From positions 62,001 through 126,000 of the forward strand of contig NZ_JAPJZI010000002.1 in the NCBI RefSeq assembly GCF_027944115.1: a DNA stretch of 64,000 nucleotides, given 5' to 3'. Source of the stretch: Hoeflea prorocentri. Lineage in GTDB: Bacteria; Pseudomonadota; Alphaproteobacteria; Rhizobiales; Rhizobiaceae. Both the position numbers and the translations under genes were made by a program. The notes beneath the pieces are model-generated. The model was not told where the DNA came from. It saw nothing but the letters and a program-made list of their open reading frames with translations, and ran no database searches. Positions 8,993 to 38,651 of this stretch are shown here, in pieces (within the stretch, counting starts at the first letter, position 1; each line of letters begins with the position of its first letter).

Positions 8993-9053
8993 TGTTTGCA
9001 AGTGACATGTAAGTGCGGCCTGCACATCAATCCATTTGTTAGGATATTTCACA

Positions 9054-23209: not shown

Positions 23210-24310
23210 CTATGGTCGGGAGCTGGCGGTCCTGCTGGTGTCCGTCACCCGCTCGTAGACCCGTTCGATTTCCGCAAGAACAGCGTTTTCGCCACATTTT
23301 TCCTGCAGGCGCTGCCTGCCTGACAGGCCGACCGTTTCGGCAAGGCCGGGTTCCTTGAGCAGGGCGCCGATGGCGTCACGGGCGCTTTGCCAATCCCCTA
23401 CCGCCACGGCAAACCCGTCTGTGCCGCTGCGAATGAGGTCAGGGACCTGGCCGGTCAGATAGGAGACGACAGGCACGGTCTGCGACATCGCCTCAAGTAC
23501 GACGACCGGGCCTTCCTCCTTCTTCGACGTGCTCAACAACACATCAAACCCGCCGATCATGGACGGCGCATCGTCGCGGTGGCCGGTCAAAACGACATTC
23601 GCCTCGATCTGCGGATCGTTCAGGAGTGTCTCCCAGCCCTCCAGGCGTTTTGCATGATGAAGGCTGCCGACGACGACCAACTTGACCCGAGGATCGATCG
23701 CGACCAGTTCCCTAAGGATCCTCAGACCGTCGGTCTGGTTCTTGCGCGGACCGACGCTTCCGACCATACCGATCGTGAAGGCGTCTGGAGGAAGTCCCAG
23801 CAACGTTCGCAGCGCGGTCTTTGCCCGCGTTCTGTCCGGCGGCTGCGGGCTGATGGGGACAAAGTTCGGAATGACGTGGATTTTTGAGCGGGCAACCAGA
23901 TTGAAACGGGTATGAAACGCGGCTGTCTGATGGCTGGGTGCAATCACAGCCTTGAAAAAGGCAAAGGGTATCTGGACGTTGCGGCTGTGCGCTGTTGTGA
24001 CGACTGCAGCGTTTGCCGCTATACGAAACACCATGCCGTATTTGTTGGCCCTGCTGCCATGGCAGTGGATGACGTCGCATCCTCTGTCGCGGATATCGTA
24101 ACCAATCCTGCGTATCTCAGCCGGACGGGTTTCAAGGCTGCTGCCGAGTGCTGTCAGCGGGGTTGGAAAGTCCTGTAAAGAAAGCCATGCACCCGACCGG
24201 TGCACCAGATGTACCTCATGCCCCCGCTGCAATTGCGCGGCGATGAGGCTGTGGCAACTGCTGGTGACGCCGTTCCGTTCCCAATGGGATACGATATGTG
24301 CGATTTTCAA
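23210..24310 (-). CDS. Glycosyltransferase, GT4/GT1-type
   Basis: 366 residues with a GT-B fold. The N-terminus reads LKIAHIVSHWERNGV, RNQ-less donor-site residues follow in IGMVGSVGPRKNQTDGL near residue 205, and the E-x7-E-like nucleotide-sugar motif appears in KKEEGPVVVLEAMSQTVPVV. It probably adds a sugar to a surface glycan. The start is a TTG at 24310 preceded by GAGGGG. The frame stays open upstream through the tRNA region, but that part is antisense to tRNA-Ser and is not coding. It borders the accessory region. Confidence 0.85.
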   Translation of the reverse strand: MKIAHIVSHWERNGVTSSCHSLIAAQLQRGHEVHLVHRSGAWLSLQDFPTPLTALGSSLETRPAEIRRIGYDIRDRGCDVIHCHGSRANKYGMVFRIAANAAVVTTAHSRNVQIPFAFFKAVIAPSHQTAAFHTRFNLVARSKIHVIPNFVPISPQPPDRTRAKTALRTLLGLPPDAFTIGMVGSVGPRKNQTDGLRILRELVAIDPRVKLVVVGSLHHAKRLEGWETLLNDPQIEANVVLTGHRDDAPSMIGGFDVLLSTSKKEEGPVVVLEAMSQTVPVVSYLTGQVPDLIRSGTDGFAVAVGDWQSARDAIGALLKEPGLAETVGLSGRQRLQEKCGENAVLAEIERVYERVTDTSRTASSRP

Positions 24311-24344
24311 ACCTGACCCCTCTCGGGACGGTCGATACGACAAT

Positions 24345-24366
24345 CGCCATGGACTTGTCCATGGCG
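24345..24366. repeat. Perfect inverted repeat upstream of the glycosyltransferase gene
   Basis: CGCCATGGA and TCCATGGCG are perfect 9-base arms around CTTG, 35-56 bases upstream of the TTG start at 24310. It could be an operator or a leader hairpin. Confidence 0.4.
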
Positions 24367-24534
24367 TTGCAGCGCCGCGGTGCAAATGGATTGCCGCCGG
24401 ACCTCCTTCACCCCTGCGTCGGCAATGGTTCCCGGTTGTGGCCGTATCTTTGACGGGATGCGAAAACGGCCTTGTCTTGCGGCGCTTGAATGGGTAAGAC
24501 AGCGCCCGCATATTCTTTATGCCGACCATGACGC

Positions 24535-24624
24535 GGAGAGGTGGCTGAGTGGTTGAAAGCACCGCATTCGAAATGCGGCATACGGGCAACCGTATCGGGG
24601 GTTCGAATCCCTTCCTCTCCGCCA
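24535..24624 (+). tRNA. tRNA-Ser (anticodon CGA)
   Basis: A 90-base class II tRNA with a genome-encoded CCA. The acceptor stem GGAGAGG pairs with CCTCTCC, followed by discriminator G and CCA. The anticodon stem CCGCA/TGCGG encloses TTCGAAA, giving anticodon CGA, which reads UCG. A long variable arm (ATACGGGCAACCGTAT) and a T-arm GGGTTCGAATCCC are present. It marks the left border of the AT-richer accessory region, and tRNA genes are common integration sites. Confidence 0.97.
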
Positions 24625-24719
24625 GTCTTTCCGGGTCTGCTCTGCCGCACTCATCTGGCCGATGCTGCATTATCGCAATGGACGAAGCGTTTGCTCACTT
24701 CGCGTGCTTCCAATCGGCA

Positions 24720-25286
24720 TCAGCGATTGAATTCCTTTGTCAATGAACTGACGATGTCCTTGGAGCCAGTGAGTGAGGCCATCTTGCCGTTAAGATAGTC
24801 CAGACTGATTTTTGAATGCCGCCGGTCATGGGAGCCAATGCAATCTTCCGCGAGTACCACTCGCAGGTCTCGCTGATAAGCGTCGATGGCCGTCATTCTC
24901 ACACAGGCATGTGTGTTGATGCCGCAAAGGACAAGACGTTCCACATCGTTGTCTTGAAGAAAGTCATCCAAGTTCGTTCGAAAAAACGCACTGTATCGTT
25001 TCTTGGTCACTGTTTCGTCACCGTCCAGCCAGTCAAGCTTTGGGTGCAACTCCGCTCCTGGACTGTTCTCAATGACAAGGCGGACGTTTTTGTCCCGCAT
25101 TTCCAAAAAGGCGTCTGTCAGGTCCTGACGAAACTCGGTCTTTATCCAGACAATCGGTAGGCAAAGGCTGCGAAAGCAGGAAACCAATTTGTTGACACCT
25201 GACACCAGACTCTGGGTTTCATCTGGATCCCAAGAAGCAAGGTAGTCGTTTTGAAGGTCGATTATTGCAAGGCAGTCTTTCATCAT
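24720..25286 (-). CDS. Isochorismatase-fold cysteine hydrolase
   Basis: 188 residues. The catalytic triad pattern is visible: Asp in CLAIIDLQNDY, Lys in VTKKRYSAF, and Cys in GINTHACVRMTAID near residue 120. Members hydrolyse nicotinamide, isochorismate, carbamoyl groups or maleamates, so the substrate is open. Two adjacent ATGs (25286 and 25283) are possible; an upstream in-frame ATG at 25316 is less likely. It ends near the tRNA-Ser gene and reads away from the remnant next to it. Confidence 0.85.
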   Translation of the reverse strand: MMKDCLAIIDLQNDYLASWDPDETQSLVSGVNKLVSCFRSLCLPIVWIKTEFRQDLTDAFLEMRDKNVRLVIENSPGAELHPKLDWLDGDETVTKKRYSAFFRTNLDDFLQDNDVERLVLCGINTHACVRMTAIDAYQRDLRVVLAEDCIGSHDRRHSKISLDYLNGKMASLTGSKDIVSSLTKEFNR

Positions 25287-25369
25287 CCGCGATTTGTTAG
25301 CGCGGTGTTGAAACAAATGCGTGACAATATTTTGCGCTGTTCCTTTTCGGACACATCAGTGCCGTGCGT

Positions 25370-25542
25370 TCAACGGCTGAACCCAGCCGCGTTCTTGAAA
25401 TGGCCCATGACGCTGCCAGGGTTGCATGTTTCCAACAGGCTGATCTTAGGCATGCCGACCCGTCCCGACGGGTCCACGACGGCCGAGCCTCTCGCAGGCC
25501 CGGTTCCTGTCAGACGGCTACGGAGGCTTGAAGAACGCGGGT
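25370..25542 (-). pseudogene. Nucleoside hydrolase C-terminal remnant
   Basis: Translation of the minus strand right after the asnB stop gives T-R-V-L-Q-A-S-V-A-V, a stop, then QEPGL. After a shift of frame it gives RGSAVVDPSGRVGMPKIS and LLETCNPGSVMGHFKNAAGF, ending at a TGA at 25370-25372. This lines up along its whole length with the C-terminus of the intact nucleoside hydrolase at 38664-39602 (RTLKASVAVSLEPGL, VVDPSGRLGTPKIRLVETC). An in-frame stop and a frameshift show it is dead. By eye the nucleotide match is roughly two thirds, so it is an old copy or another lineage's allele. Confidence 0.8.
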
Positions 25543-27405
25543 TCAGCGCCCGGCAGCGCCGACCAGTTTTTCGCCAACGTCTTCCGCTGTTTCTCCCGAG
25601 CCGTAAATGCGTGCGAAGACCTCATGGCCGACAAGGCGCGCGCGCAGGTAGGGGTTTGCCCCGCACATTGCGACAAAGCGGCCGGTTTCCCCAATACTCC
25701 ATCCCATTAACTCACGCAGCACGCCGCCGTTCAGGAGTGTCTCAGTACCCTCGAAATAGTCGTTGGTTACGGGAAAGCCCTTCTTCTTTGCCAGAATATT
25801 CTGCGCAGGCAAATATCTCGATGCCACCTGTTTCAAAAGCCATTTTCCCTGCCGTTTTCGATATTTGAGCGCAGGCGGCAGGTTGAGGGCAAAGTCGATT
25901 ATTCCGTTCTCCAGAAACGGCACGCGCAATTCGACTGAAGATGCCATTGAAACGCGATCGTGACGATGGATTATGCCTTGCATGTGACCACACAGGTCGA
26001 AAATCCCGTTACCCGCATAGACCCGGCGAGATATTGGCTTCAGGAATTCCAGAGCCTCCATTATGTCATGCTGGCGAAAATTGTATGCCGCCGAAAGAGA
26101 GGAAGCAAACTTCATCGCAACGCTGGGTGTCATTCCTCCCATTGCATTGACGAAGGCGGAATCGATCAGGCGATCAAGTCGCCGTTTCCGGGCGCTTCGC
26201 GTTGGCCCGAGAGCGGCGATCAGAGACAAGATGGATGCACGGCGCGCGGATTTTGCGTGCCACGGGTAACCGCCGAACAGTTCGTCTGAGCCTTCGCCGG
26301 TCAAAAGCACTTTGATTCCGTCGGCCTTGCAGCGTCTCGTCAGTGCGAGGAGTGCCGGTGTTGCATTGCTGAGATTACCATTTTCAACGTGGTAGATCGA
26401 AGTGGCGAGCAGCCGCAAATACTGAGCCCGGTCCAGTGCGACCCTTTTCAATGGCACGCTCAATCCCGAGCAGGTTCGCTGTGCGTCCTCGGCTTCGCTG
26501 ACACCGGTATCCGGATCGATGACATAGGCATGGAACGGATTGACGAACTCGCGTGTCAGAGCCGTGATCATGCCTGAATCGACTCCGCCGGAACAGGCGG
26601 TGGCAAGCTCTGTATCAGACAGACAGTGCATTCCGACACTCGCGCGCAGACGCGCTTCCAGCTCTGTCTTTGCCCTTTCAGTGTCCGGTCGGCGCTCGCC
26701 CAGCCTCAGGGGATCCAGCGCGTCAAGAGCATGCCAGAATGACCCCTCGTGAACACCGTCATTGTCTATCCGCCAACAGGCACCCGGCGGTAACCTTCTC
26801 ACATTCCGGAAGGAAGAGAGGTAAGAATCAACACTCTGAAACGCAAGCGCCAGGGTCAGGGAGCGTGTGTCGATATGTGTTTCGAAGCCGGATACCCTGA
26901 GCAGTGCCTTGTCCTCGGAGGCAAACATGTAGCGGTCGCCGACTGACGCAAAGGAAAGCGCCTTGATACCGAGACGGTCGCGACACAACCACAGGGCCTC
27001 CTTGCGCTTGTCGAAATAGGCGAATGCGAACATTCCGGTAAAACGTTGCAGTGCCTCTTCCACTCCCCAATGATGAAGTGCCCACAATACGACTTCGGTG
27101 TCGCTTTCGCTGATGAAGTTTATGCCGACCCTTTGCAGCTCAGCGCGCAGTTCCCGAAAGTTGTAGACTTCACCATTATAAACCAGAGCGCCGCTTTCGT
27201 CGGGCGTGGTTGCCGGTTGCAGTCCTCGGTCCGACGGATCGAGGATAGCCAACCGGCAGTGGCCAAATGCTAGGCGCTCATTTGACCAAAACCCTTGCCC
27301 ATCGGGCCCTCGATGGGCAATCTCCTGGATCATTGAGCGGATATCTGCAGTGTCAGTTTCCGTTACCCGGTCCTTGCGATGCCAAATTCCTGCAATTCCA
27401 CACAT
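25543..27405 (-). CDS. asnB: Asparagine synthase (glutamine-hydrolysing) family amidotransferase
   Basis: 620 residues. Class II glutaminase domain starting with the required MCGIAGIW (Cys2 nucleophile, so the start is certain), with the AHRGPDGQGFW and YNGEVYNFRELR motifs. The synthetase domain has the PP-loop CSGGVDSGMITAL near residue 270 and TGEGSDELFGGYPWH near 380. In surface-polysaccharide clusters such proteins often amidate uronic acids or peptide carboxylates rather than making asparagine. It lies 24 bases after the ATP-grasp gene at 27430-28488 and probably shares its transcript. Confidence 0.88.
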   Translation of the reverse strand: MCGIAGIWHRKDRVTETDTADIRSMIQEIAHRGPDGQGFWSNERLAFGHCRLAILDPSDRGLQPATTPDESGALVYNGEVYNFRELRAELQRVGINFISESDTEVVLWALHHWGVEEALQRFTGMFAFAYFDKRKEALWLCRDRLGIKALSFASVGDRYMFASEDKALLRVSGFETHIDTRSLTLALAFQSVDSYLSSFRNVRRLPPGACWRIDNDGVHEGSFWHALDALDPLRLGERRPDTERAKTELEARLRASVGMHCLSDTELATACSGGVDSGMITALTREFVNPFHAYVIDPDTGVSEAEDAQRTCSGLSVPLKRVALDRAQYLRLLATSIYHVENGNLSNATPALLALTRRCKADGIKVLLTGEGSDELFGGYPWHAKSARRASILSLIAALGPTRSARKRRLDRLIDSAFVNAMGGMTPSVAMKFASSLSAAYNFRQHDIMEALEFLKPISRRVYAGNGIFDLCGHMQGIIHRHDRVSMASSVELRVPFLENGIIDFALNLPPALKYRKRQGKWLLKQVASRYLPAQNILAKKKGFPVTNDYFEGTETLLNGGVLRELMGWSIGETGRFVAMCGANPYLRARLVGHEVFARIYGSGETAEDVGEKLVGAAGR

Positions 27406-27429
27406 TCGGCAGGCCCTGTTTCTTGCGTT

Positions 27430-28488
27430 TCAAATCATGCGGAATTCGGCGAGGATGCGCCTCTTGGGTTCGGTGTCGAGCAGCGAGGCAGCGCTCTGGA
27501 CAGAATCGACCCCCGGTCGCGTATTCATCTCGATAACGGTGACGCCGTCTTCGCGCAGCGCGATGTCCCAGCCCACCAATCCGGGGCGCGGGAGGATGCC
27601 GGACAGTTCGGAGACCGTTTCGCAAATCATTTGCCAATGCGGCACCGTAACACCCGCCAGCAATGTCCCTGTTTCCGGATGGGTATCGGAAAGCGTCCGT
27701 GCAAACCTTTCTTCATTAAATGACACGCATGGGCCAAGCACACCGGTTTCGAGATCAATGGCCGAAACGGTGCCGCCCGTTCCCTTCAGAAAATTATCGG
27801 TCGGCGCCGAGCGGCTGGTCGCGCATTTGAGGGTTGCGGCGAGGATGACGACCCTGTAGTCGACCGCGGACGTTGCAGTCAGCACCCGGACAGAATTGAC
27901 GGCGTCAGGGAATATTTGACGTGCCCAGGCTGATTGTTCGATGATCTCGGAAATCATGAAACCGAGCGGAAGCCCCTTGACCCACTGGTCCATGCCTGAC
28001 CTGTCAAGATAGTCGCCGTTGATGCGAAAGCCCCGCCCTTCACGTGCCGCCCTGAAAGCACCGGCACCTTTGCCTGCGTCGGCCGGCTTGATGAAGATGG
28101 CTCGGTCACCTTCCAGAAGTGACGGCACTTGCGACCGTTTGGTGATTGCGGACACCCCATCGGCTATGGGGACAACGCGGTCGCCGGCGACGTAGTGAGT
28201 CACCGGTGGTGAAACACTTGGCCGTACTTTGTCGAGCCACAGTTTTTGAGAGATCTTGTTATGTAAAGCCGCATACAACATTCTGTTGTAGAAGGCAGAT
28301 CTTCTCTCAAATTTTGTCAGGCGAATGTATCTTCCGGAACTGCGGATATCCGGGGGTAGAAGAGCAATAGACCTGGACGGGTGGCCGCGGACTATTGACC
28401 GGATACGCCATATAATGTGTGGTGCAGGATGCTTAAATTCTTCGTCAAGCAGGCCGGAAAAAGAGCTAATACGAGTAAATATCCCCAT
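27430..28488 (-). CDS. Sugar-transfer-associated ATP-grasp protein
   Basis: 352 residues. FIKPADAGKGAGAFRA gives the ATP-grasp lysine and glycine-rich loop, NSVRVLTATSAVDYRVVILA is typical of the sugar-transfer-associated ATP-grasp family, and IEMNTRPGVDSVQ near the end supplies the Mg-binding N-x-R. These enzymes are thought to ligate carboxylates to amines during glycan decoration, but no member's reaction can be assumed here. The ATG at 28488 (MGIFTRISS) is preferred over a TTG at 28506. It is upstream of asnB and divergent from the PP-loop operon. Confidence 0.75.
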   Translation of the reverse strand: MGIFTRISSFSGLLDEEFKHPAPHIIWRIRSIVRGHPSRSIALLPPDIRSSGRYIRLTKFERRSAFYNRMLYAALHNKISQKLWLDKVRPSVSPPVTHYVAGDRVVPIADGVSAITKRSQVPSLLEGDRAIFIKPADAGKGAGAFRAAREGRGFRINGDYLDRSGMDQWVKGLPLGFMISEIIEQSAWARQIFPDAVNSVRVLTATSAVDYRVVILAATLKCATSRSAPTDNFLKGTGGTVSAIDLETGVLGPCVSFNEERFARTLSDTHPETGTLLAGVTVPHWQMICETVSELSGILPRPGLVGWDIALREDGVTVIEMNTRPGVDSVQSAASLLDTEPKRRILAEFRMI

Positions 28489-28629
28489 GATCGACTTAAA
28501 CCACAAGTACCGTTTCTGATCAATTGCTGCTAATGTGCCTGCAAATACTTGGAATTCTTTCCATTTTATCTGAATGTTTCGGTCTCGTCATGCGACTCAG
28601 AATGCGCAGTTCATACCTCATCCATCAAC

Positions 28630-29823
28630 ATGATCGACGATGAGCAGACAATGAAGCCTGGGTGCCTGTCTGTCTCATTCGCACCATCGATGCCGGTTCA
28701 GGACAGCGATCGAACCCCCCTGACTGTGCGGTTTTCGTCCGGTCATTATGAACGGCTGGTTCATTTCAAATCAGCGGGCGCTCCGCTCACTGCCTCAGGC
28801 GATGCGCTGTTGTGCCTCGGTTTGCTGCCTGCTCTGGAACTGGGTGTCGACTTGCGCATCGATTGCGAGGTCGACGAAGACCTGATGGAGCAATCGGGCG
28901 ACATACAGGAGCTCTTGTGTGCCTGGTATCCGGGCTATCAGCCGGTTTCGATTCTGGCTAAGACGACGCGCCGGCAATATCCTGCCAACCGGAAGACCGG
29001 CCTCTTTTTCTCCGGCGGTGTCGATTCGTGCTTTTCCCTTGTGGAATCGGGTGAAAAGCTCGGGGGGCTGGTCACGGTCATAGGTGCGGATGTTAATCCG
29101 AACGACAAGGAAAATGCCGAACGGCTCGAAGCCATCACGCGGGATATAGCCGGTCACTATGAGTTAAATGCAATATTCGTATCCACGGACATCAGGCGAA
29201 CGTCCGATGCGCTGATTGGTTGGGTCGAATATCACGGCGCGGTTCTCGCTGCGATCAGACATATGCTGGCCGACGAATTCGACAATCAGCTCATCGCCTC
29301 ATCGGCGGACGAATCGTCCTGGAACCGCAGGTGGGGCTCCCATCCGGCGCTCGATGGCCTTTGGAGCACGCCCGGCGCCGGCATCGAGCATCATGGAATG
29401 GTTGATCGGCTTGCGAAAATTGACCGCCTTGGCCGTGAACCGGAATTGATGCGTCGGCTCAGGGTCTGCAATCTTCAGTTCGAGAATTGCGGGGCATGCG
29501 ACAAGTGCTTGTTCATGCAGGCCTCATTTGATCTTCTGGATATTCGAAATTCGGCAACGACATTCGATGCCGCTGCGCCAGCGACACCGGATTTGCGTGT
29601 CACCGGGGAAGGTTCGCTGTCCGATCTGAAGCAAATGCGGAAATTCGCTTTGGCCAAGGGAGGGCACGGTGACATCGTCGCATCGATAGATAAGGGGCTG
29701 CGACGCTATGAGCGGACAAAGGGTTTGCAGCGACTGGTGCCGGTCTCGGAAATAAAGCGTCGGTTCAAGAGGCTGAAGCGCAAAATGCGGTTCCGGCGGG
29801 CAAGAACGGGGACGAGCGGATGA
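28630..29823 (+). CDS. PP-loop ATPase-like protein with QueC-type zinc motif
   Basis: 397 residues from the ATG at 28630; ATG 28651 is also possible. GLFFSGGVDSCFSLVESG holds the SGGxDS PP-loop that adenylates a carboxylate or carbonyl. The zinc motif CNLQFENCGACDKC (C-x6-C-x2-C-x2-C) sits near residue 300, very like that of QueC, which makes a nitrile from a carboxylate. The N-terminal about 120 residues are not recognisable and the C-terminus is strongly basic (RRFKRLKRKMRFRR). It overlaps the next gene by four bases (ATGA). No QueC role in queuosine is claimed: no other que gene is nearby. Confidence 0.65.
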   Translation: MIDDEQTMKPGCLSVSFAPSMPVQDSDRTPLTVRFSSGHYERLVHFKSAGAPLTASGDALLCLGLLPALELGVDLRIDCEVDEDLMEQSGDIQELLCAWYPGYQPVSILAKTTRRQYPANRKTGLFFSGGVDSCFSLVESGEKLGGLVTVIGADVNPNDKENAERLEAITRDIAGHYELNAIFVSTDIRRTSDALIGWVEYHGAVLAAIRHMLADEFDNQLIASSADESSWNRRWGSHPALDGLWSTPGAGIEHHGMVDRLAKIDRLGREPELMRRLRVCNLQFENCGACDKCLFMQASFDLLDIRNSATTFDAAAPATPDLRVTGEGSLSDLKQMRKFALAKGGHGDIVASIDKGLRRYERTKGLQRLVPVSEIKRRFKRLKRKMRFRRARTGTSG

Positions 29824-31052
29824 CCCTTCCGGAGCTTACGGCGATCTATCCGCCCGGAACCTTTCTGGCGCCGCGTCTGGAAGATCCATCGGCAAAATGG
29901 GTGCCTTCAGATCTGCACGCGGTCGAGTTCATGACCGCGAATCTGATCGCATGTGCCGGCGGATTTCCCATGCTTGTGCATAAAGCCGCCATGTCTCCCG
30001 ACGGCTTGGAATTGATGGAGCGTTGCGGTGTCAACATAGGCAGCGCCATTGAAACCTATGAAACACCCGACGATTACCACAATGCCCTCATGCGACGTAT
30101 TGAAGATGGCCAGACCGCGGTTTTCGTCTACCCGTCCAGCGTACAATTGCCTGAAAAGAAAGCCGCTCTTGTCGCTTCCGATTGTCTCGCCCACCTGAAC
30201 AACAAACAAAACATTGCCCAATTGTCAGGTCCGGAGAATATCCCGAGACGCCGCACAATCGACAATGGCAGCCGCGACCAGCGCGACACCTTGGTGGCGC
30301 CGATTGCCCTGAAGATAGCAACGAACGAACCCAATGCCGGTGGATTGGACGTTGCGATCTGTCGCCGGCGCAGGCACATCGACCGTGCTCTGTCACGCTT
30401 CGCGGATGCTGAGACTCTGATTGCCGAGGAACTGATTGAAGCGGTGCGGAACTGGTGCGTGCAATTTGCCGTCACGGCGGATGGGACCGTGTGTGAAATA
30501 GGGGCAACGGAACAGATTTGCATTCGCAGCGGAATTCATGCGGGAAATCTGTACGCCGTCGATGCAAGCCCGGAAGAAAATGTCCTCACGATCGGCCGTT
30601 CAATTGCCGAAGCCGGTAGCAAACTGGGTTTTCGAGGTCTGTGCGGGTTCGATATTCTGTTGGACAGGCATGGCAAGGCTTTTGTGATTGACCTTAATTT
30701 TCGGCCAGTTTCCAGCTCTGCTTTTCTGTATGAGGCGTTGCGGCGCAGTAATTTGGGCACAGGTGCCCGGTTTGCACGTCTGGCATTTTGCAGGTCGGAA
30801 GGCACTCTTGCGCAGATGATCCGGCGTTGCGATCAGGGCTTCCGTGACGGCTGGATTATCCCACTGGCCACGTTCGAACCGGAGTTTGGCGGCCTGAAAG
30901 GCGGCACCGCGCGGATGCGCCTGATGATCGTTGCAGATAGTCTTAAGGTATTACACAGGCGCGAGCAGAGCCTCGCCGGATGCGGGGTCGATTTTGTACA
31001 TATGCCAAATCGTTTCGAGCAACTGAAACACTGGTTTCGGAACGTGATCTGA
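29820..31052 (+). CDS. ATP-grasp ligase-like protein
   Basis: 410 residues. IALKIATNEPNAGGLDVAI gives the ATP-grasp lysine and small loop, TLIAEELIEAVRNW the hinge region, and GLCGFDILLDRHGKAFVID then LNFRP the Mg-binding D/N-x-R. It resembles carboxylate-amine or carboxylate-thiol ligases. It is translationally coupled to the PP-loop gene upstream (ATGA overlap) and is one base from the GNAT gene downstream, so the three probably act in one pathway. The substrate is unknown. Confidence 0.65.
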   Translation: MTLPELTAIYPPGTFLAPRLEDPSAKWVPSDLHAVEFMTANLIACAGGFPMLVHKAAMSPDGLELMERCGVNIGSAIETYETPDDYHNALMRRIEDGQTAVFVYPSSVQLPEKKAALVASDCLAHLNNKQNIAQLSGPENIPRRRTIDNGSRDQRDTLVAPIALKIATNEPNAGGLDVAICRRRRHIDRALSRFADAETLIAEELIEAVRNWCVQFAVTADGTVCEIGATEQICIRSGIHAGNLYAVDASPEENVLTIGRSIAEAGSKLGFRGLCGFDILLDRHGKAFVIDLNFRPVSSSAFLYEALRRSNLGTGARFARLAFCRSEGTLAQMIRRCDQGFRDGWIIPLATFEPEFGGLKGGTARMRLMIVADSLKVLHRREQSLAGCGVDFVHMPNRFEQLKHWFRNVI

Positions 31053-31053
31053 A

Positions 31054-32121
31054 ATGGTTGTGCAATCGCCCGGAGATATGGATTACCAGTGGGAAATCGT
31101 CGACAGCGAAAATGGGCTCGGTCTGCTTGAGCGGGAATGGTCGGCCTTGAATGCGCGATGCGGACCACAGGGGTTTTTCACGCGGTACGAGGTGATAAGG
31201 GCAAACTGGGACCGGCACCGCGCTGATTCCGGGAGCAAGCTTCATATTGTTGTCTTCCGGGACCGGGGGGGCACTCTCGTGATGGGCGTGCCCATGGTGC
31301 GGGTCCGCGAGCCGCTTGGAACGCACAAGCTGGTTTGGCTGGATTCCAAAACGCCGCTTTATGACGATGTGCTTCTGGATCCGGATGTCGAAATCGAGGT
31401 TGCCGCCCGACATTTCAAGAGTGTTCTTTCAACGTCCTTGTTGAACCGGGTGTTGAAAATCGGCTTTGTACTTGAAGGCTCAAATCTTCACCGGTTGCTT
31501 AATGCCACTGGACTGCCGACAAAGTTGCTGACGACGGCGCCGTCTTTGAACATTTCTGAATTTGAGAGCTGGGAGCACTATCTTTCACGGATCTCAACGA
31601 ATCGACGGCAGCGAATACGCAATTTCGTCCGGAGAATTGAGAAGGCCGGCGCCAAGGCTCCAAGGCTGATCACAAATGCAGCGGAACGCCGTGATGTGAT
31701 GAATGAACTCTTCGACAGGAAAAGGCGCTGGGCGGGGATGCGTAGCGATCTTATGGATTGGGTCGCACCTGAGGAAACGGAAGCCTGGTTTCAATTGATC
31801 AGCAATATTCAGGACGAAAGGAACAGGAGCCACCTGTTCCTGTTGGAATCGGATACCGAACGCATTGCAAGTCTGTTGTTCTTTGAGCGCGATGGCACGC
31901 TTTTTCTATCTAAACTCGCACACAGCGAAGCCTGGGAACAGTTTTCTCCCGGTTGGCTGATTGTCCACGAAGCGATTAAATTCGGCATTGAACAACGCAT
32001 GAAGACTGTGGACTTCATGATCGGCAATGGTGCCTGGAAGGAGCGAATCGCGGACCGTACCAACAAGATATTTGGCTGCCGCGCCGGGCCGGTGTCCTGG
32101 CGATTTGGTACTCTGAAATAA
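31054..32121 (+). CDS. GNAT / BioF2-like (FemAB-related) acyltransferase
   Basis: 355 residues. A double-GNAT layout is visible: an N-terminal half around EWSALNARCGPQGFFTRYEV, then SRISTNRRQRIRNFVRRIEK near residue 185 (the R-R-x-I-R-N/K pattern of BioF2-like acetyltransferases). The C-terminal half has SKLAHSEAWEQFSPGWLIVH and VDFMIGNGAWKERIADR. Such proteins (CelD/BioF2, FemAB-like) move acyl or aminoacyl groups onto glycans or peptides. The ATG at 31054 is one base after the ATP-grasp stop. It is the end of a three-gene operon. Confidence 0.75.
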   Translation: MVVQSPGDMDYQWEIVDSENGLGLLEREWSALNARCGPQGFFTRYEVIRANWDRHRADSGSKLHIVVFRDRGGTLVMGVPMVRVREPLGTHKLVWLDSKTPLYDDVLLDPDVEIEVAARHFKSVLSTSLLNRVLKIGFVLEGSNLHRLLNATGLPTKLLTTAPSLNISEFESWEHYLSRISTNRRQRIRNFVRRIEKAGAKAPRLITNAAERRDVMNELFDRKRRWAGMRSDLMDWVAPEETEAWFQLISNIQDERNRSHLFLLESDTERIASLLFFERDGTLFLSKLAHSEAWEQFSPGWLIVHEAIKFGIEQRMKTVDFMIGNGAWKERIADRTNKIFGCRAGPVSWRFGTLK

Positions 32122-32138
32122 TCTCCTGGCGGGATCGC

Positions 32139-33416
32139 TCACTCAAACCGACTTGCTGCAAGGTTTTCAGCCACCAGAAATTGATCCGGTGCCCGTTGGC
32201 ATTGTCTGAACAGATGATCACGTGCGTCGAGTGCAAGCCGGGCCATTCTCGCATAGTCCCGTTTATCGGTGCCGTCTTCCGGAATTGCGTGGCGGTTGCC
32301 GTTTAAGGGCTCGACGGTGGCTTCCATGCGTCTTAAGGGCTCGGTTTCCAGTATGGACATTGAAAAGATGGGCGTGTTGCGGCGGGTGGCTATGGAGAGC
32401 GGAGAGGTCGGCATGCTGACATAACCCGCTTCGCCGAACGGCATCTCGACGAACATGTTTCCGGCATAGACATTGTTGGTCAATATTATGAGTTCGCCCT
32501 GTTCCAAAAGGCTGATGATCTTCCCCATCACGGAGGCGCCATGGCTGCGGTCGAACACGACCCGTTGCTTCAAATACTTGTTTTCCGCGCTGCGTAGAAG
32601 CCGGTTGATAGTCGCATTTCCAAATGCGGTATCAGAAAACCCGTGACTGTCGACACTGACCTGAAGCGGCTCAAAACCCTGTTCCCGCAACGCCCGTTTG
32701 CCAGCCAGAGCCTGATATTCGAACTGAAATGCCCAGACTATGGCACCTTTGCCGGCCTTCAGGGCGTCGCGAAGCAGGTCGGCGCCAGAAAAGTCGATTT
32801 TCGGATTTCTTCGTTGTGCAAGAATATCGACCATGAGCATATGTCTGCGTCTGTGTGTCATTCGCAGATGAGATCGAAATAACAACTCAACTTCTTCTTC
32901 GTCATTGATAGAAAAAACAGATCGCATTGACTTGGCAAATCTTGCGAAATTCTTTTTACGATGGTGACGATAACGAATTGATGAAGTAAACCGATTGAAA
33001 GATGTCCATGTGCTGACCGGGAAAAGGGTTGAAGCTGCAGATCCGCAAAGGAGCAATATCTCTCTGATGTCACTTTCCGAGAAACGCCGCCGGGCCGGCG
33101 GCTTCAAACGTGTCCGTTTGTAGAAGCGTGCCATATCGCCAGCGGAGAGGATCTCATTCGTAAGCTCGTAGGAAAAATAGCGTTCAGACATAAATTCTAC
33201 TTTAAACAGCCCGTGCCCGCTTCCAACAGTACTTGAAATCCAGAGCGCTCTTTTCGCAAAATAACAGTTGCTGAAGTAGTCGGGAAGCAAATAGAGCAAA
33301 AAGGAAAATAAACCTTTGAAGGCGAAGAGCACCTCCCGGACCGCAGTTTTCACTCGATTGAGCGAGCTCAACAGCCGTGATGGCCGATTGCGCAGCTCAA
33401 TCAGGGCCGTGCGCAA
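32139..33416 (-). CDS. Divergent LpxL/HtrB-like acyltransferase, start uncertain
   Basis: Up to 425 residues. The C-terminal half resembles lysophospholipid/LpxL-type acyltransferases: KAGKGAIVWAFQFEYQALAG where active LpxL has H-x4-D/E, GKIISLLEQGELIILTNNVY, then MPFGEAGYVSMPTSPLSIAT. The catalytic His-x4-Asp is not seen, so activity is doubtful or uses another residue. The longest frame starts at TTG 33416 and overlaps the 5' end of the divergent Mur ligase; GTG 33353 or ATG 33191 are possible. Codons upstream of 33191 look protein-like (LLYLLPDYF). The family call is tentative. Confidence 0.5.
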   Translation of the reverse strand: MRTALIELRNRPSRLLSSLNRVKTAVREVLFAFKGLFSFLLYLLPDYFSNCYFAKRALWISSTVGSGHGLFKVEFMSERYFSYELTNEILSAGDMARFYKRTRLKPPARRRFSESDIREILLLCGSAASTLFPVSTWTSFNRFTSSIRYRHHRKKNFARFAKSMRSVFSINDEEEVELLFRSHLRMTHRRRHMLMVDILAQRRNPKIDFSGADLLRDALKAGKGAIVWAFQFEYQALAGKRALREQGFEPLQVSVDSHGFSDTAFGNATINRLLRSAENKYLKQRVVFDRSHGASVMGKIISLLEQGELIILTNNVYAGNMFVEMPFGEAGYVSMPTSPLSIATRRNTPIFSMSILETEPLRRMEATVEPLNGNRHAIPEDGTDKRDYARMARLALDARDHLFRQCQRAPDQFLVAENLAASRFE

Positions 33417-34617
33417 AGGCTGGAAGAAAATTTATGCTGAGTGGCGTCGCAAACGTATTCATCTGGATTCAATCATCGCGGTCACCGGCAGTTGCGGTAA
33501 GTCGACAACCACCAAACTTACTGCCGCTGCATTGGCTGAAAAACCCGGTGTTTATCTCGGATATGGAAAGAACACGCCCAAAGGCATTCGGGGGGCAATG
33601 TTCAGGATGCCGGCCAGTGCAAAAATCTGGGTTCAGGAAGTCAGCGGGCATAAACATGATGCCATGGAGACATCGGTCAGATTCATCAGGCCGACAATCG
33701 GTGTCGTGACCACAATCGGGATGGATCACATCTCGAACTTCGACTCGCCTGAAGATATCGCCGTCTCAAAGGGGCAACTGGTTGAGGCATTGCCGGAAAA
33801 TGGACATGCGATTCTCAATGCCGACGACCCACTTGTGGCTGCGATGGCTGGGCGTACACACGCCAATGTCATCACTTTCGGCAAGGCGCCCGATGCTGAT
33901 ATTCGCCTTGTTTCAAGCAGTCACGGATATCCCGAGCGCCTCAATCTAAGAGTGTGTGCAGGTGAGGAGGTTGTGGACGTTCCGACACGATTTGTGGGCG
34001 AGCGCTGGACTACCAGCGTGCTGGCTGCGCTTGCTGCAGCGCATGCGGTGGGTGTGCCGCTCAAACAGGCCGCCGCCGGCATTGAAACGGTTGAACCGCT
34101 GCGTTTCAAAGACGATGTTTATACCCACAATGGCATGACATTTATTGTCGACTCATACAAGGCACCGCTTTGGACGGTCCAGTCAAGCGTGGACATTGTC
34201 GCCGCTGCAAAGGCACAACGTAAGGTCATGATCTTCGGAACGATTTCAGACTATCGGGGTTCTGCCAGGGGCAAGTATGTCCGAAGTGCGAAATCGGCAC
34301 TTGAGGCAGCGCAGCTTGTTATCTTCTACGGTCGGCATTCGCAGCGGGTCAGGCGGCTGAAAGCCGATTACCCGGATCGGCTCTTCATGTTCGAGACCTA
34401 CAAGGAGTTGACGGCTTTTCTGCGCGGGGCTTTGAAGGCGGGAGACCTTATCTACATTAAAGCCTCGGGCTCCGCCGATCACCTCGAGCGCATCGTGCTG
34501 GATCATAAAAAGCCGGTGATTTGCGAGTTAACGGATTGTAGCAGGCCGTATACCTGCAACCATTGCAGGCACCTTCACGGCAAGAAGCGTTGGTTCTCAC
34601 GAACGCGTCAGACCTGA
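33316..34617 (+). CDS. Mur ligase family protein lacking the UDP-binding domain, Cys-rich tail
   Basis: 433 residues. The P-loop AVTGSCGKSTTTK is only about 55 residues in (K62). VVTTIGMDHISNF and AILNADDPLVAAM are the middle-domain motifs and RFKDDVYTHNGMTFIVDSYK opens the C-terminal domain. There is no MurC/D/E/F-type first domain, so the acceptor is probably not a UDP-muramyl peptide; CapB/PgsB-like ligases are built similarly. The tail CELTDCSRPYTCNHCRH has four cysteines that could bind metal. The start is TTG 33316 after AAGGAAAATAAACC. Its last ten bases overlap the convergent formyltransferase gene. Confidence 0.7.
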   Translation: MKAKSTSRTAVFTRLSELNSRDGRLRSSIRAVRKGWKKIYAEWRRKRIHLDSIIAVTGSCGKSTTTKLTAAALAEKPGVYLGYGKNTPKGIRGAMFRMPASAKIWVQEVSGHKHDAMETSVRFIRPTIGVVTTIGMDHISNFDSPEDIAVSKGQLVEALPENGHAILNADDPLVAAMAGRTHANVITFGKAPDADIRLVSSSHGYPERLNLRVCAGEEVVDVPTRFVGERWTTSVLAALAAAHAVGVPLKQAAAGIETVEPLRFKDDVYTHNGMTFIVDSYKAPLWTVQSSVDIVAAAKAQRKVMIFGTISDYRGSARGKYVRSAKSALEAAQLVIFYGRHSQRVRRLKADYPDRLFMFETYKELTAFLRGALKAGDLIYIKASGSADHLERIVLDHKKPVICELTDCSRPYTCNHCRHLHGKKRWFSRTRQT

Positions 34618-35591
34618 TCTTTGGCCTGCCAGAATTTACTCAACCGATACCCGGCGATCGAAATTGCCGGGTTGGACAATATGGAAACCGCCTTTCTCTT
34701 GCGAAACATCCGTATGCGGCAGTCGCGGATATCCATTTCGACAAAGATCGGCGAGACACGCGCATCCGCTCCGGTGGGCTCGGAAACAACGGAAACTGAG
34801 CGGTGGACCGGAAATGTATCACGCCGACCTATAGGTGGTTGTATCGCCGCACGCACATTGACGCCGGCAGGCATGGCCAGAAGTCGCCGTACCTCGTCAA
34901 GTGTTTTCCCCGCTTCCACACAGAACTCATATCGGCCGGCCTTTCTGTAGTTTCCGGAGCCCTGGATTTGAGCAACAGCCTCAAGGTCGCCTCTGAGATA
35001 GGACTGCAGATCGGTGCGCGCGAGATCGGCGGCGGCCTGCGCCAAGCGAAAGGTCCAGACGTGGTAGTTCTGGCCAGGAGCGGCCGGAACGCTCCGTTGA
35101 GCGATAATTGGACCCGTGTCGATGCCAGCATCAAGCTGGTGTATCGTTACGCCGCCATACGTGTCCGCCTGGCCATCGGCCAACAGGCTGAGCGTTGGCT
35201 TGGGACCCTTGTAGTGGGGTAGCAAAGCCGGGTGCACGTTAACCGCCCGCCTGCCGAATTGATCTATTATCCAGCGCGGCACAATCTGATGTGTCATCAG
35301 GGTAATGAGAGTATCGGCTTTAACTTCCGACAATAAATCTCTTTTTTGTGGAATACTTGAAAGAATATCATTTCGAATTACATGAATATTATGACGTTTG
35401 ACATGAGCTCTAAGCGTTGGTACTGAGCTTGAAAAAGAAACGATTTCTTGCGTTATGCTTGATTCTAGATGTTTTTTGTCTCTAGTCCAGATAGCAGAGA
35501 TAGTATTACCGCAACCAAGCCAAGCATCGATGAAAGCTGAGCTTACGATGCTTTTTTCAACGATAAATAAAGCGCGAAACGAGTCAGGCAT
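34608..35591 (-). CDS. Formyltransferase family protein
   Basis: 327 residues from ATG 35591. The motif NVHPALLPHYKGPKPTLSLL holds the Asn and His of methionyl-tRNA formyltransferase-like enzymes, and HQLDAGIDTGPIIAQ gives the Asp. In surface-glycan clusters these enzymes N-formylate amino sugars using 10-formyl-tetrahydrofolate. The C-terminal about 100 residues are not recognisable. The longer frame (ATG 35684) would overlap the divergent GT25 gene, so 35591 is preferred. The AT-rich upstream part suggests acquired DNA. Confidence 0.78.
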   Translation of the reverse strand: MPDSFRALFIVEKSIVSSAFIDAWLGCGNTISAIWTRDKKHLESSITQEIVSFSSSVPTLRAHVKRHNIHVIRNDILSSIPQKRDLLSEVKADTLITLMTHQIVPRWIIDQFGRRAVNVHPALLPHYKGPKPTLSLLADGQADTYGGVTIHQLDAGIDTGPIIAQRSVPAAPGQNYHVWTFRLAQAAADLARTDLQSYLRGDLEAVAQIQGSGNYRKAGRYEFCVEAGKTLDEVRRLLAMPAGVNVRAAIQPPIGRRDTFPVHRSVSVVSEPTGADARVSPIFVEMDIRDCRIRMFRKRKAVSILSNPAISIAGYRLSKFWQAKDQV

Positions 35592-35652
35592 ATCAACAAG
35601 AATTTCCCACAGTGCTATCGGAAAAACATAGAATAGAGCGAGTCGGGCGGCT

Positions 35653-36426
35653 TTGTCAGAATTTTCCTTTTCTGCGTATCTCATTAATTTGGATCGTCAT
35701 CCCGAACGACTGAGGATTTCGGGCGCTGCGCTGGATTCTCTTGGCCTCAATTTCCAGCGCTTGGCGGGTGTCGACTACCGCGAACTGGATCCTCAGACGA
35801 TTGGCGCGGCCGTCGATAAGACGCCCGCGGCGATGGTCAAGCGTCAGCTTAGCCCTGGCGAGATTGCCTGTTTTCTGTCTCACATCAAGGTGTGGCGGGC
35901 GATTGCGGAGAGCTCGGAGGATATGGCCTGGGTTTTTGAGGATGACGTTTCGTTTTGTGCGAATGCACGCACGGCAATGTTGGAAATCGAATCCGGTAAG
36001 CGCGACTGGGATCTTGTTCGGCTCTACAGCCATAAGGCCCTGTCGCTGGAGCGGATTGAACCAATGGAGTGCGGGTATTCGATCGGACTTTCGCGGAAAA
36101 TCCCGATGTCCACAATCGGCTATGCAATCTCCCGTCCGGCAGCTGATTTCTTGTCCCGGGCGATGGTGCCGTTCAGTCTTCCTGTCGACTCTGCGCTCAA
36201 GCAGTGGTGGGATCACGGGCTTTGCACAAAAGTTGTCGCACCGTCTCTTTGTGAGCCGCGAAAAGATACCGCCACCGCCAGCACCTTGGATGCTAGCCGT
36301 GCAAACAACAAACCGAAAAGTCTCGTTGATCGCTTTGTGCTAAACCTGCGTTATCAGTTTGAGCAGAGGCGCATGCGACATGGCCACGCCGCACGCTTTC
36401 CGGACAGAAACCGTTTTGATTGGTAG
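35653..36426 (+). CDS. Glycosyltransferase family 25 (LPS type)
   Basis: 257 residues. FSAYLINLDRHPERLRIS is the GT25 N-terminus, GEIACFLSHIKVWRAIAESS and WVFEDDVSF follow, with EDD the metal-binding motif. GT25 enzymes transfer galactose or related sugars in lipooligosaccharide and other glycans, and are membrane-associated in the cytoplasm. No ATG precedes the conserved start; TTG 35653 follows GGGCGG. It reads toward the pyruvyl transferase gene. Confidence 0.88.
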   Translation: MSEFSFSAYLINLDRHPERLRISGAALDSLGLNFQRLAGVDYRELDPQTIGAAVDKTPAAMVKRQLSPGEIACFLSHIKVWRAIAESSEDMAWVFEDDVSFCANARTAMLEIESGKRDWDLVRLYSHKALSLERIEPMECGYSIGLSRKIPMSTIGYAISRPAADFLSRAMVPFSLPVDSALKQWWDHGLCTKVVAPSLCEPRKDTATASTLDASRANNKPKSLVDRFVLNLRYQFEQRRMRHGHAARFPDRNRFDW

Positions 36427-36435
36427 GACGTTGCC

Positions 36436-37380
36436 TCAGTTCAACGTGACGTGAGGCAACAGGTGTGGCCAGGTGTTGACATAGGCGCCGACTTTCCCGG
36501 TCTTGTTGTCTGCTGCCGCAACCTCCCGTTTCATCAGAGAGGCGAGGATGACACCATGCAGGCGGTCAGTCAGGACGCGGTTGCCGCGTCCCAACAGTTT
36601 TGATGCGGCCTTGACCTTGGACTTTGCGACACTGTCAAATGCAGCAAGTCGCAGCCGCCGGGACGGGATCAGAGGCGAAATTTTGCCGAGTCGGTTCATC
36701 TGCATGATCGTCCGGTTATCCCGCCAGTCGAAAACATCACCGCTCGGCAGATGGTTGCCGGAGGCACCCGGTAAAGCTTCGCCGTCCTTCCTAAACAGGC
36801 CAACCGCCTCGGTTGTCGGCCTCGCGTCTGATATGTGGCACCAGTGGGCAGTATCGGGGCATAGTTGTCCTTCAATTCGGTAAGTCTCGCGAAGTTGCTT
36901 CATGCTGTTTCGCTCCCTGACAAGAACTTTCAAGTTGAGGCAGCGTTCCACCACCGAACGGGTCTCGGCGATCAGCGCTGGGTTGCCGGGATCGCGCTCG
37001 GCAACACTCAGCGGCAACAGGACAATTCGCAAATCCGCAATTTTGTCGAGTGCCCGAAGGCGCATTCGGTGGTGCTTCTCGTACAGTGATCCGAAATTTC
37101 CACCTCCGAGAAAGAATATCGTGCCCTCGGAAGTTTTCTCGCGGCACCGTCGAGCATCGAATTGCCGGACGGTCGATACGTAGGCGGGCGCATATCCGTA
37201 GATGCTCTCCAGAGCCCGACGCGCTCCCAACCATATCGCGCAGTCGCCAGGATTGGCATAGTTGGGATAATCAACGATTGCGTATGGTTTTCCCGGCGCC
37301 AGTCCGCTGAGCGCTTGCTCAATATATCCCTTGGCGGAACTGTTCATCTGTTGTGTGCGGATCCCCGTTGCAGACGCCAT
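36436..37380 (-). CDS. Polysaccharide pyruvyl transferase family protein
   Basis: 314 residues from ATG 37380; ATG 37347 is an alternative. YAIVDYPNYANPGDCAIWLG is the family N-terminal motif, IFFLGGGNFGSLYEKHH follows, and the C-terminal NRVLTDRLHGVILASLM carries the conserved R-L-H-G. Members add ketal pyruvate to exopolysaccharide sugars or act as related sugar-modifying enzymes. The strand differs from the GT25 gene, which ends nine bases away. It is the last recognisable glycan gene on the right side of the accessory region. Confidence 0.85.
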   Translation of the reverse strand: MASATGIRTQQMNSSAKGYIEQALSGLAPGKPYAIVDYPNYANPGDCAIWLGARRALESIYGYAPAYVSTVRQFDARRCREKTSEGTIFFLGGGNFGSLYEKHHRMRLRALDKIADLRIVLLPLSVAERDPGNPALIAETRSVVERCLNLKVLVRERNSMKQLRETYRIEGQLCPDTAHWCHISDARPTTEAVGLFRKDGEALPGASGNHLPSGDVFDWRDNRTIMQMNRLGKISPLIPSRRLRLAAFDSVAKSKVKAASKLLGRGNRVLTDRLHGVILASLMKREVAAADNKTGKVGAYVNTWPHLLPHVTLN

Positions 37381-37446
37381 ATCCTGGGTTCCAGATTTTA
37401 TTGAATTGAACAGCAAGTGACTGTCGATAATTATCGCAAAAAGCAA

Positions 37447-37838
37447 ACAATTGATAGATACATAATATGTATATCATATGCTGAGTGCGATTATTTATTC
37501 ATACGTATTCGCCAATTCAGAATTATAGAACCGGTAAAAGCAATAGAGATTTTGTTTTTTGATTTGCTCGGTTCTGCTCTTTCATAGCGAAATGGTTTTG
37601 TTGCTCTTCCGTGGCGAACCCCATCAAGACCGACTCTGCACTAAGAATATACTGCGAGACTATTCTTAATGTGAGGTTGCTTTATTTCTTCTATTTTCCA
37701 TTAGAAATTGTATTCTCCAATGTTTTAAGATTGAAAATACCGATTAACACTTGAGCGGGTTGATTCGATCCGTGCCTGAATTCAGACCAGAGGCGCTACG
37801 GGCGTCTATTTCGTGAAATCGAATCCGAGGATGCAACG
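37447..37838. other. AT-rich region without a supported gene
   Basis: About 390 bases, conspicuously AT-rich next to the rest of the window. Overlapping short palindromes lie around 37461-37478 (ACATAATATGT and TATATCATATG types). No ORF, tRNA or insertion-sequence end was recognised. It separates the glycan genes from the membrane protein and purine locus and is probably the right border of the acquired region, with the promoters of the flanking divergent genes. Confidence 0.5.
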
Positions 37839-38651
37839 ATGGGTTACAGGATTTTTGCACTTTGCCTGAAACAGGTTTTCGGCCACCTTGGCGTGGCTTT
37901 GCGCTTAAGCTGGTTCTGGCTGCTGCTCGGCTTGCTGCTGTTTTTGGGGTTTTTTGGAATGTTCGGCGGTCTTGATCAGCAGGCCGGCAGCGAAGGTGTT
38001 CAACCACATGCCGGGCCGCCTGTTTTCCTGACCCTGCTGTTGTCCATTGCCACAATGGTAGTCTTTTTGCTCGGCGGGGCGGTTATCGCAATTGGCTGGC
38101 ATCGATTTGTCTTACTGGATGAGGAGCCGCAAAACTTCTTTGTGCTACGGCGGCAGTGGTCAATCGGAACTTACGTCATACGCGGACTTCTGATTATGCT
38201 CATTCTGGCGGCGGTGTTCCTTCCCCTGTTACTCATCCTGGTTTTGGTGTTCGGTTCGGTCATCTTCGGATCTGTTACTAATGAAGGTGGATCCTCCAAC
38301 AGTCTGTTTGTGATGGCAGCATTCCTGTTGCTGGTAAATGTCGCAGCAACGTGGGTTATTTTACGAATCGGCCTGGTCCTGCCGACTATTGCGGTCGACA
38401 AGAGGATATCATTCGGCGAATCCATCAGATTGACGCGGCACGTGGCCGGGCCGCTTCTTGTAACCGCGGTTTGCATCGTGGTGTTCAATTTCATCCCGAC
38501 CTTCTTGTTTGAAATTGTCTCTACTCAGTCTACGGCGCTGGAGATTGTTCGAATGGCGTTCACGACCGCATTCAGTTGGATCAGCTTCCTTGTCAGCATT
38601 GGAATATTGACGGTTGTCTACGGACATTGTGCAGAAAACCGCCCTGTTTGA
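37839..38651 (+). CDS. Multi-pass membrane protein, function unknown
   Basis: 270 residues with about six hydrophobic segments: around 20-45, 65-88, 110-140, 155-178, 200-222 and 235-260. There are no catalytic motifs. RISFGESIRLTRHVAGPLLV and the general layout resemble uncharacterised integral membrane proteins with glycerophosphoryl-diester-phosphodiesterase-like membrane domains, but this is weak. The ATG at 37839 follows GAGGATGCAACG. It lies alone between an AT-rich gap and the convergent nucleoside hydrolase. Confidence 0.7.
   Translation: MGYRIFALCLKQVFGHLGVALRLSWFWLLLGLLLFLGFFGMFGGLDQQAGSEGVQPHAGPPVFLTLLLSIATMVVFLLGGAVIAIGWHRFVLLDEEPQNFFVLRRQWSIGTYVIRGLLIMLILAAVFLPLLLILVLVFGSVIFGSVTNEGGSSNSLFVMAAFLLLVNVAATWVILRIGLVLPTIAVDKRISFGESIRLTRHVAGPLLVTAVCIVVFNFIPTFLFEIVSTQSTALEIVRMAFTTAFSWISFLVSIGILTVVYGHCAENRPV

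Follow-up and report, generated by a model that had tools for sequence, protein, structure and literature searches.

Background

The central protein of this study is a PP-loop protein, and its closest described relatives are QueC and QatC. Solved QueC chains have ~200-230 residues, and the QueC zinc motif is C-x8-C-x2-C-x2-C. QatC, of the anti-phage qatABCD system (PDB 9y01/9y02), is described in part of PMC12424860 as a defence protein of a reaction yet to be established, and a differing cysteine variant of it is reported in part of PMC13329287. In a second comparable system, peptidoglycan synthesis, the dipeptide ligase Ddl is paired with MurF. Mur-ligase and GNAT genes also occur beside cyclodipeptide synthases, a different setting (described in part of PMC2922099).

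Here, we analyzed a 64,000-nucleotide stretch (the window) of Hoeflea prorocentri contig NZ_JAPJZI010000002.1, which comes from a 5.04-Mb genome. It contains a block of ten genes on both strands, at positions 25543-37446. We give about an even chance to the reading that the block is a horizontally mobile tailoring pathway, putting amide-linked groups on a carbohydrate-based molecule. No description of this block was found in the literature searched, and none of a QueC/QatC-like gene linked with a pyruvyl transferase. The PP-loop protein differs from QueC in its length (397 residues) and in its C-x6 instead of C-x8 spacing, and the block genes include no queuosine genes. Like peptidoglycan synthesis, the block pairs a relative of ATP-grasp dipeptide ligases with a MurF-like ligase, but the former resembles LdmS, and in the latter no MurF N-terminal domain was matched. 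Its polysaccharide pyruvyl transferase (PyrT) matches family PF04230 and a solved enzyme along most of its length, and differs from the described members by its recurrent linkage with a QueC/QatC-like gene.

Genes of the block

The ten genes are listed below, with positions in the window.

25543-27405, minus strand: AsnB-type glutamine-dependent amidotransferase (620 amino acids; N-terminal Cys and SGGVDS present; PF00733, PF13522, PF13537)
27430-28506, minus strand: sugar-transfer associated ATP-grasp ligase (ATPgrasp_ST; PF14397)
28630-29823, plus strand: predicted QueC/QatC-like PP-loop protein (SGGxDS; C-x6-C-x2-C-x2-C; likely ATG start at 28630)
29820-31052, plus strand: LdmS-like ATP-grasp ligase (LdmS, L-Asp-L-Met ligase; NF047900, PDB 7r8p)
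31054-32121, plus strand: GNAT (Acetyltransf_6; PF13480, E 2.8e-20), distantly FemAB-like (FemAB_like, E 0.0018, below cut-off)
32139-33191, minus strand: LpxL/LpxM/PatA-fold protein (fold of the model; start inferred from relatives)
33316-34617, plus strand: MurF-like Mur ligase, middle and C domains only (PF08245, E 2.9e-30; PF02875, E 1.5e-6; both above cut-offs)
34608-35684, minus strand: formyltransferase (Formyl_trans_N; PF00551, E 4.1e-19)
35653-36426, plus strand: GT25-family glycosyltransferase (PF01755, E 2.8e-23)
36436-37446, minus strand: polysaccharide pyruvyl transferase (PyrT; PS_pyruv_trans, PF04230, E 7e-17)

The initial annotation had named these genes, except for the LpxL-fold protein at 32139-33191, which it omitted. 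Pfam and NCBIfam supported AsnB, ATPgrasp_ST, the LdmS-like ATP-grasp, GNAT, Mur ligase, Formyl_trans_N, GT25 and PS_pyruv_trans, as well as an isochorismatase next to the block. The PP-loop, LdmS-like ATP-grasp and GNAT genes are co-directional and tightly packed.

PyrT scored 62.7 bits against PF04230 (gathering threshold 25.3) and matched the solved Pyruvyl transferase 1 (5ax7, E 1.7e-13, residues 52-328), placing it within the family. The LdmS-like ligase matched NF047900 with an E value of 9.4e-55 and 185.9 bits, below the curated cut-off of 475, and PDB 7r8p with 1.2e-33. Residues 41-315 of the MurF-like ligase aligned with residues 94-373 of the solved MurF 4cvk (E 3.5e-25); the MurF N-terminal domain was unmatched, the alignment starting at MurF residue 94, and the murF model TIGR01143 gave 176.3 bits, short of its cut-off of 288.6. 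A PDB sequence search returned no match for the ATPgrasp_ST protein. In Pfam, neither the PP-loop protein nor the 32139-33191 protein had a match at E 0.01.

The model of the 32139-33191 protein showed the LpxM/PatA fold, as in the LpxL/HtrB family (PF03279). This match came from fold comparison, the PDB sequence search with a profile being empty. The catalytic HX4D/E motif was absent in seven of nine aligned members and lay at unshared positions in the other two. Unlike LpxL/LpxM/PatA, six of the nine read Q-F-x-x-Q at the apparently equivalent place, as positioned by eye and by a weak hhalign match against the LpxL of the same genome, which carries HTGNFE.

As initially annotated, the block genes include no Wzx, Wzy or priming transferase by Pfam; there was also no ABC exporter, and the gene set is not that of a complete capsule or O-antigen locus.

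Conservation of the block

The block is a true unit and not a random accessory region. In Hoeflea poritis, of the same genus, all ten genes were found, with unchanged order and relative strands and 56-80% identity. An Ahrensia metagenome-assembled genome (MAG; locus L029) and Aquibium sp. ELW1220 (L030) each had nine of the ten; neither had a formyltransferase match, and the Ahrensia GT25 was only a fragment. Reduced versions occurred in other Rhizobiaceae and in Rhodobacterales. AsnB and ATPgrasp_ST lay within the block in L028, L029 and L030. The H. poritis ATPgrasp_ST match contains one internal TGA, and a broken gene was considered and rejected: the match extends a few codons upstream of a 352-amino-acid open frame.

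Across the 20 PP-loop loci closest to that of the window (L028-L046 and L074; several end at contig ends, and some come from one genome), a MurF-like gene was present in 15, GT25 in 12, GNAT in 10, an LdmS-like gene in nine, the LpxL-fold gene in eight, the formyltransferase in five, and AsnB and ATPgrasp_ST in three each. A PS_pyruv_trans gene was verified in 14. As a control, genes neighboring the block in the window were searched identically in 62 other loci. The isochorismatase and an adenine deaminase had one weak match each (L074 and L064, respectively), and a membrane gene at 37839 and a nucleoside hydrolase had none. GT4 enzymes belong to a very widespread superfamily, and the one encoded at 23210 was matched in 13 of the 62 loci, but not in any of the 20 close ones.

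A phylogenetic profile was computed over 61 genomes (our own and 60 relatives). The PP-loop gene was present in seven of them. All five genomes with the LdmS-like gene were among these seven, and all three with the LpxL-fold gene held the PP-loop gene. ATPgrasp_ST had strong matches in three genomes and weak ones in three more that lack the PP-loop gene; in one genome (G026), the strong match was on a different contig from the PP-loop gene. The shared pathway proposed in the initial annotation was thus borne out at the level of co-occurrence, with an ordered block recurring in other genera and the LdmS-like and LpxL-fold genes found, among the 61 genomes, only in those with the PP-loop gene.

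These data bear directly on the idea that unrelated accessory genes had gathered at a tRNA hot spot. It would fit the low GC of the region and the variable DNA downstream of the tRNA in relatives, but it is already contradicted by H. poritis, which keeps the gene order and strands at a different site, and by two other genera, which keep them too; we regard it as extremely improbable.

Linkage of PP-loop and pyruvyl transferase genes

PF04230 linkage was assessed in 50 of the 59 PP-loop loci, from 43 genomes with 0-4 PF04230 genes each. A PF04230 gene with verified strand and frame was found in 28 of the 50 loci (27 above the Pfam cut-off, L055 below it), and in 12 the gap to the PP-loop gene was at most 713 bases. 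By coordinate alone, the count was 33; L049, L052, L060, L065 and L069 lacked verification and were excluded, although some may be real. Outside the 50, a local PyrT profile matched strongly in L083, L084 and L086, and weakly in L080 and L082. PF04230 was also the commonest family (12) among 109 sampled neighbors of distant PP-loop genes, followed by Glycos_transf_2 (8); here, 149 frames were listed and 109 aligned and scanned, from mechanical frame calling that includes some shadows. In a Dehalococcoidia MAG (L067, 3108-5282), PP-loop and PS_pyruv_trans domains form one in-frame fusion of 725 amino acids. Candidate GT25-PyrT fusions in L044 and L046, each one long frame, were rejected, the GT25 match lying in another frame, offset by 67 bases.

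All 19 listed plasmid members of the PP-loop family are annotated as 'hypothetical protein'. Ten of the 19 matching plasmid records were read, and PyrT adjoined the PP-loop gene in six: Gemmobacter, two Azospirillum, two Gloeothece and Priestia. It did not in three haloarchaea and Nostoc, which is weak evidence, since the plasmid annotation tables are incomplete. In the two Azospirillum plasmids, the pair had no other annotated glycan genes adjoining. These lone pairs and the L067 fusion argue for a linkage beyond shared genomic context. The linkage gives a concrete substrate hypothesis for the PP-loop family, and the ordered ten-gene block is a tractable pathway for testing it, present in marine bacteria that are non-pathogenic.

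Near the Gemmobacter PP-loop gene were a tyrosine autokinase, an O-antigen ligase family gene and mannose-nucleotide genes. This copy within an exopolysaccharide locus would suit an ordinary capsule or O-antigen pathway with its polymerase and flippase elsewhere, in which the PP-loop protein and Mur ligase perform known steps only (uronamide formation, N-formylation, aminoacylation). Glycans with amide-linked amino acids, N-formyl and pyruvate groups are established chemistry. Nevertheless, the PP-loop family lacks a clear match in Pfam, the window protein has no NCBIfam match, and no account of this combination of ligases turned up in the literature searched; we consider such a pathway unlikely.

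In the haloarchaeal plasmids (L099, L104, L105), the PP-loop relative was near an alkaline phosphatase family protein and a polysaccharide deacetylase, with no adjoining PyrT. Two of the three also hold a ligase or GNAT.

The PP-loop protein family

The SGGxDS residues S128, G129, G130, D132 and S133 were invariant in 36 family sequences, as were four cysteines, spaced C280-x6-C287-x2-C290-x2-C293 in the window protein. The window protein did not match QueC (PF06508) even at E 1, failing the Pfam gathering threshold, and 14 of the 36 members matched it weakly (best E 0.0041). The window protein had no NCBIfam match either. In a PDB sequence search, the single protein had no match and the profile had four, QueC among them, at E 0.19 or worse. 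The AlphaFold2 model, in contrast, aligned with QatC (9y02_B) over positions 9-362, most of the chain, and had the QueC core with N- and C-terminal extensions (Foldseek E 6.9e-5). The model thus points to a QueC/QatC-like fold, with QatC as the nearest solved structure. Members occur in Proteobacteria, Cyanobacteria, Bacillota, other bacterial phyla and haloarchaea.

This fold match favors a defence-type or protein-modifying module, in which the QatC-like enzyme would modify a partner protein as Cap9 does. QatC membership by sequence was, however, rejected, as no QatC model of PADLOC-DB matched any of the 36 members at E 1; the only matches were single weak ones to QueC (E 0.013), Cas1_II and DruA. 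Among the block genes, no KAP ATPase or TatD of a qatA/qatB/qatD operon was found by Pfam (QatB was not searched by profile), and the block neighbors are metabolic ligases. We regard such a module as very improbable.

Eight loci (L050, L052, L054, L069, L072, L073, L077 and L081) have tight groups of two or more PP-loop family genes, which suggests steps with different substrates.

Proposed pathway

A carboxylate-making PyrT, amide-forming ligases and acyl-, formyl- and aminoacyl-transferring enzymes sit together in the block, and from this we infer the tailoring pathway. GT25 would add a sugar, which PyrT would convert to a carboxylate-bearing pyruvate ketal. The PP-loop enzyme would then activate a carboxylate, most likely that of the pyruvate ketal, as an acyl-adenylate and couple it to an amine. 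By analogy with Ddl and MurF, the LdmS-like ATP-grasp may build a short peptide and the MurF-like ligase attach it. AsnB could supply asparagine or amidate a free carboxylate, while the GNAT, formyltransferase and LpxL-fold protein may add or cap amino groups. Amide bonds would thus be formed by the PP-loop enzyme, the MurF-like ligase, the two ATP-grasps and AsnB. The likely acceptor is a surface glycan synthesized by genes located outside the block. Substrates, step order and acceptor are conjectural here, the glycan target being suggested by GT25, PyrT and the neighborhoods of the relatives. The initial annotation had put forward an amide- or peptide-decorated glycan or a small peptide product; this fits the block anatomy and the PyrT pairing, with the product itself still presumptive.

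A broader conjecture, which we find rather doubtful, is that the PP-loop proteins are widespread carboxylate-activating ligases paired with PyrT, amidating the pyruvate ketal of glycans (a 'pyruvamide' or peptide ketal), that the pair grew into a ten-gene pathway in Rhizobiales, and that QatC derived from this ligase family. If true, it would provide a testable lead to the reaction of the anti-phage QatC.

Several observations weigh against glycan tailoring by these enzymes. The block genes include no gene for sugar-nucleotide synthesis, flippase, polymerase or export. AsnB and ATPgrasp_ST are not core, given their presence in only three of the close loci, and AsnB may be a plain asparagine synthase, because it exceeded the curated TIGR01536 cut-off (387.9 against 267.1 bits). 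For the PP-loop protein, the Foldseek TM-score to QatC was only ~0.4, and QueC-like folds also cover nitrile formation, thiolation and protein modification. With regard to the linkage, no PF04230 gene could be verified in the DNA fetched for 22 of the 50 PP-loop loci, some of them truncated by contig ends. PF04230 is common in bacteria, being present in eight of 14 control genomes. As both gene types favor glycan loci, this shared context may account for part of their linkage. In the full block, PyrT and the PP-loop gene are on opposite strands, 6.6-7.4 kb apart. Lastly, the PP-loop family is not restricted to a context of pyruvylated glycans, because it has some paralogues beside a cytochrome P450 or near non-ribosomal peptide synthetase (NRPS) genes, and haloarchaeal members without an adjoining PyrT. 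In L037 (7940-11149), an additional and more distant PP-loop paralogue (40% identity) follows a cytochrome P450 (by Pfam) and a 258-amino-acid gene of no Pfam family; in L039 (7967-11161), another such paralogue (39%) is preceded by genes clustering with these two.

The main alternative is that the product of the block is a small, diffusible compound, siderophore-like or a signal, such as a pseudopeptide or a glycosylated or pyruvylated dipeptide, instead of a decorated surface glycan. The many ligases, the lack of polymerase and glycan-export genes and the PP-loop relatives near NRPS genes or beside P450 speak for it. So does an AMP-binding enzyme encoded close to the MurF-like ligase in L029, L033, L036 and L038, assigned from a cluster in which one member was identified by Pfam. 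In L029, an extra gene separates the LpxL-fold from the MurF-like gene and clusters with the L038 AMP-binding enzyme; this cluster also has members in L036 and L033. The block, however, has no dedicated transporter or carrier-protein gene, and GT25, PS_pyruv_trans and the glycan-rich neighborhoods of many relatives point to carbohydrate. We hold a small-molecule product to be a tentative possibility that deserves serious attention.

Genomic surroundings and composition

Three features border the left side of the block.

23210-24400, minus strand: GT4 glycosyltransferase, outside the block (GC at third codon positions, GC3, 0.683, host-like)
24535-24624, plus strand: tRNA-Ser(CGA), housekeeping, at the edge and outside the unit (ARAGORN, Rfam)
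24720-25316, minus strand: isochorismatase-family hydrolase (PF00857), within the region of the initial annotation and not conserved with the block

The tRNA-Ser(CGA) is the only tRNA found in the window by ARAGORN, and Rfam concurs with it, in line with the tRNA initially annotated next to the region. Its genome has no second close copy, and the three other matches are 76-78% identical. A role for it was not upheld. In H. poritis, the block is on contig C8 and the tRNA on contig C50, and because the block sits elsewhere than the tRNA, the latter is outside the unit. In seven relatives (G001, G002, G003, G005, G006 [H. poritis], G007 and G026), the tRNA adjoins proA-proB-obgE-GNAT-rpmA-rplU, and the DNA behind it varies. 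Beyond the tRNA of these seven (stretches of 3.6 to ~14 kb), no match to AsnB or PyrT of the block was found. An eighth genome (G022) had no match to the proA-proB-obgE-GNAT-rpmA-rplU flank. The block is therefore mobile, its site is a variable one, and the tRNA beside it is incidental. An island targeted to the tRNA and flanked by attachment repeats was rejected: besides itself, the tRNA with its 3' flank gave only 10-15-base BLAST matches in the window. No integrase was seen in the block.

Likewise, the isochorismatase gene, which is inside the coordinates of the initial annotation, does not belong to the unit, given its single weak match in the 62 other loci; one weak isochorismatase match (28%) was present beyond the tRNA in G002. 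Relatives of the GT4 gene lie beyond the tRNA in G006 and G007 (60% and 59%, respectively).

The initial observation that the region is AT-richer was reproduced, with a GC of 0.546 for 25543-37446 versus 0.594 (1-24534) and 0.590 (38664-64000). The ten block genes had GC3 values of 0.51-0.63, versus 0.68-0.76 in ten other window genes taken as host-like; low values were also found for the isochorismatase gene (0.573) and the gene at 37839-38651 (0.605). Tetranucleotide usage (12-kb windows, 1-kb steps) deviated as well, the five most deviant of 53 windows starting at 24001-28001 and overlapping the block.

At the right edge of the block, the intergenic stretch 37447-37838 has a GC of 0.385 and is followed by the low-GC3 gene 37839-38651, of no Pfam family. 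On contig C38 of G005, two equally matching tRNA-Ser(CGA) copies (149259-149348 and 162192-162281) lie on one strand, 12.9 kb apart, possibly bracketing an integrated element. Outside the block, the GC of the window dips to 0.475 over 1 kb at 9001-10000, around an open reading frame at 9036-10013.

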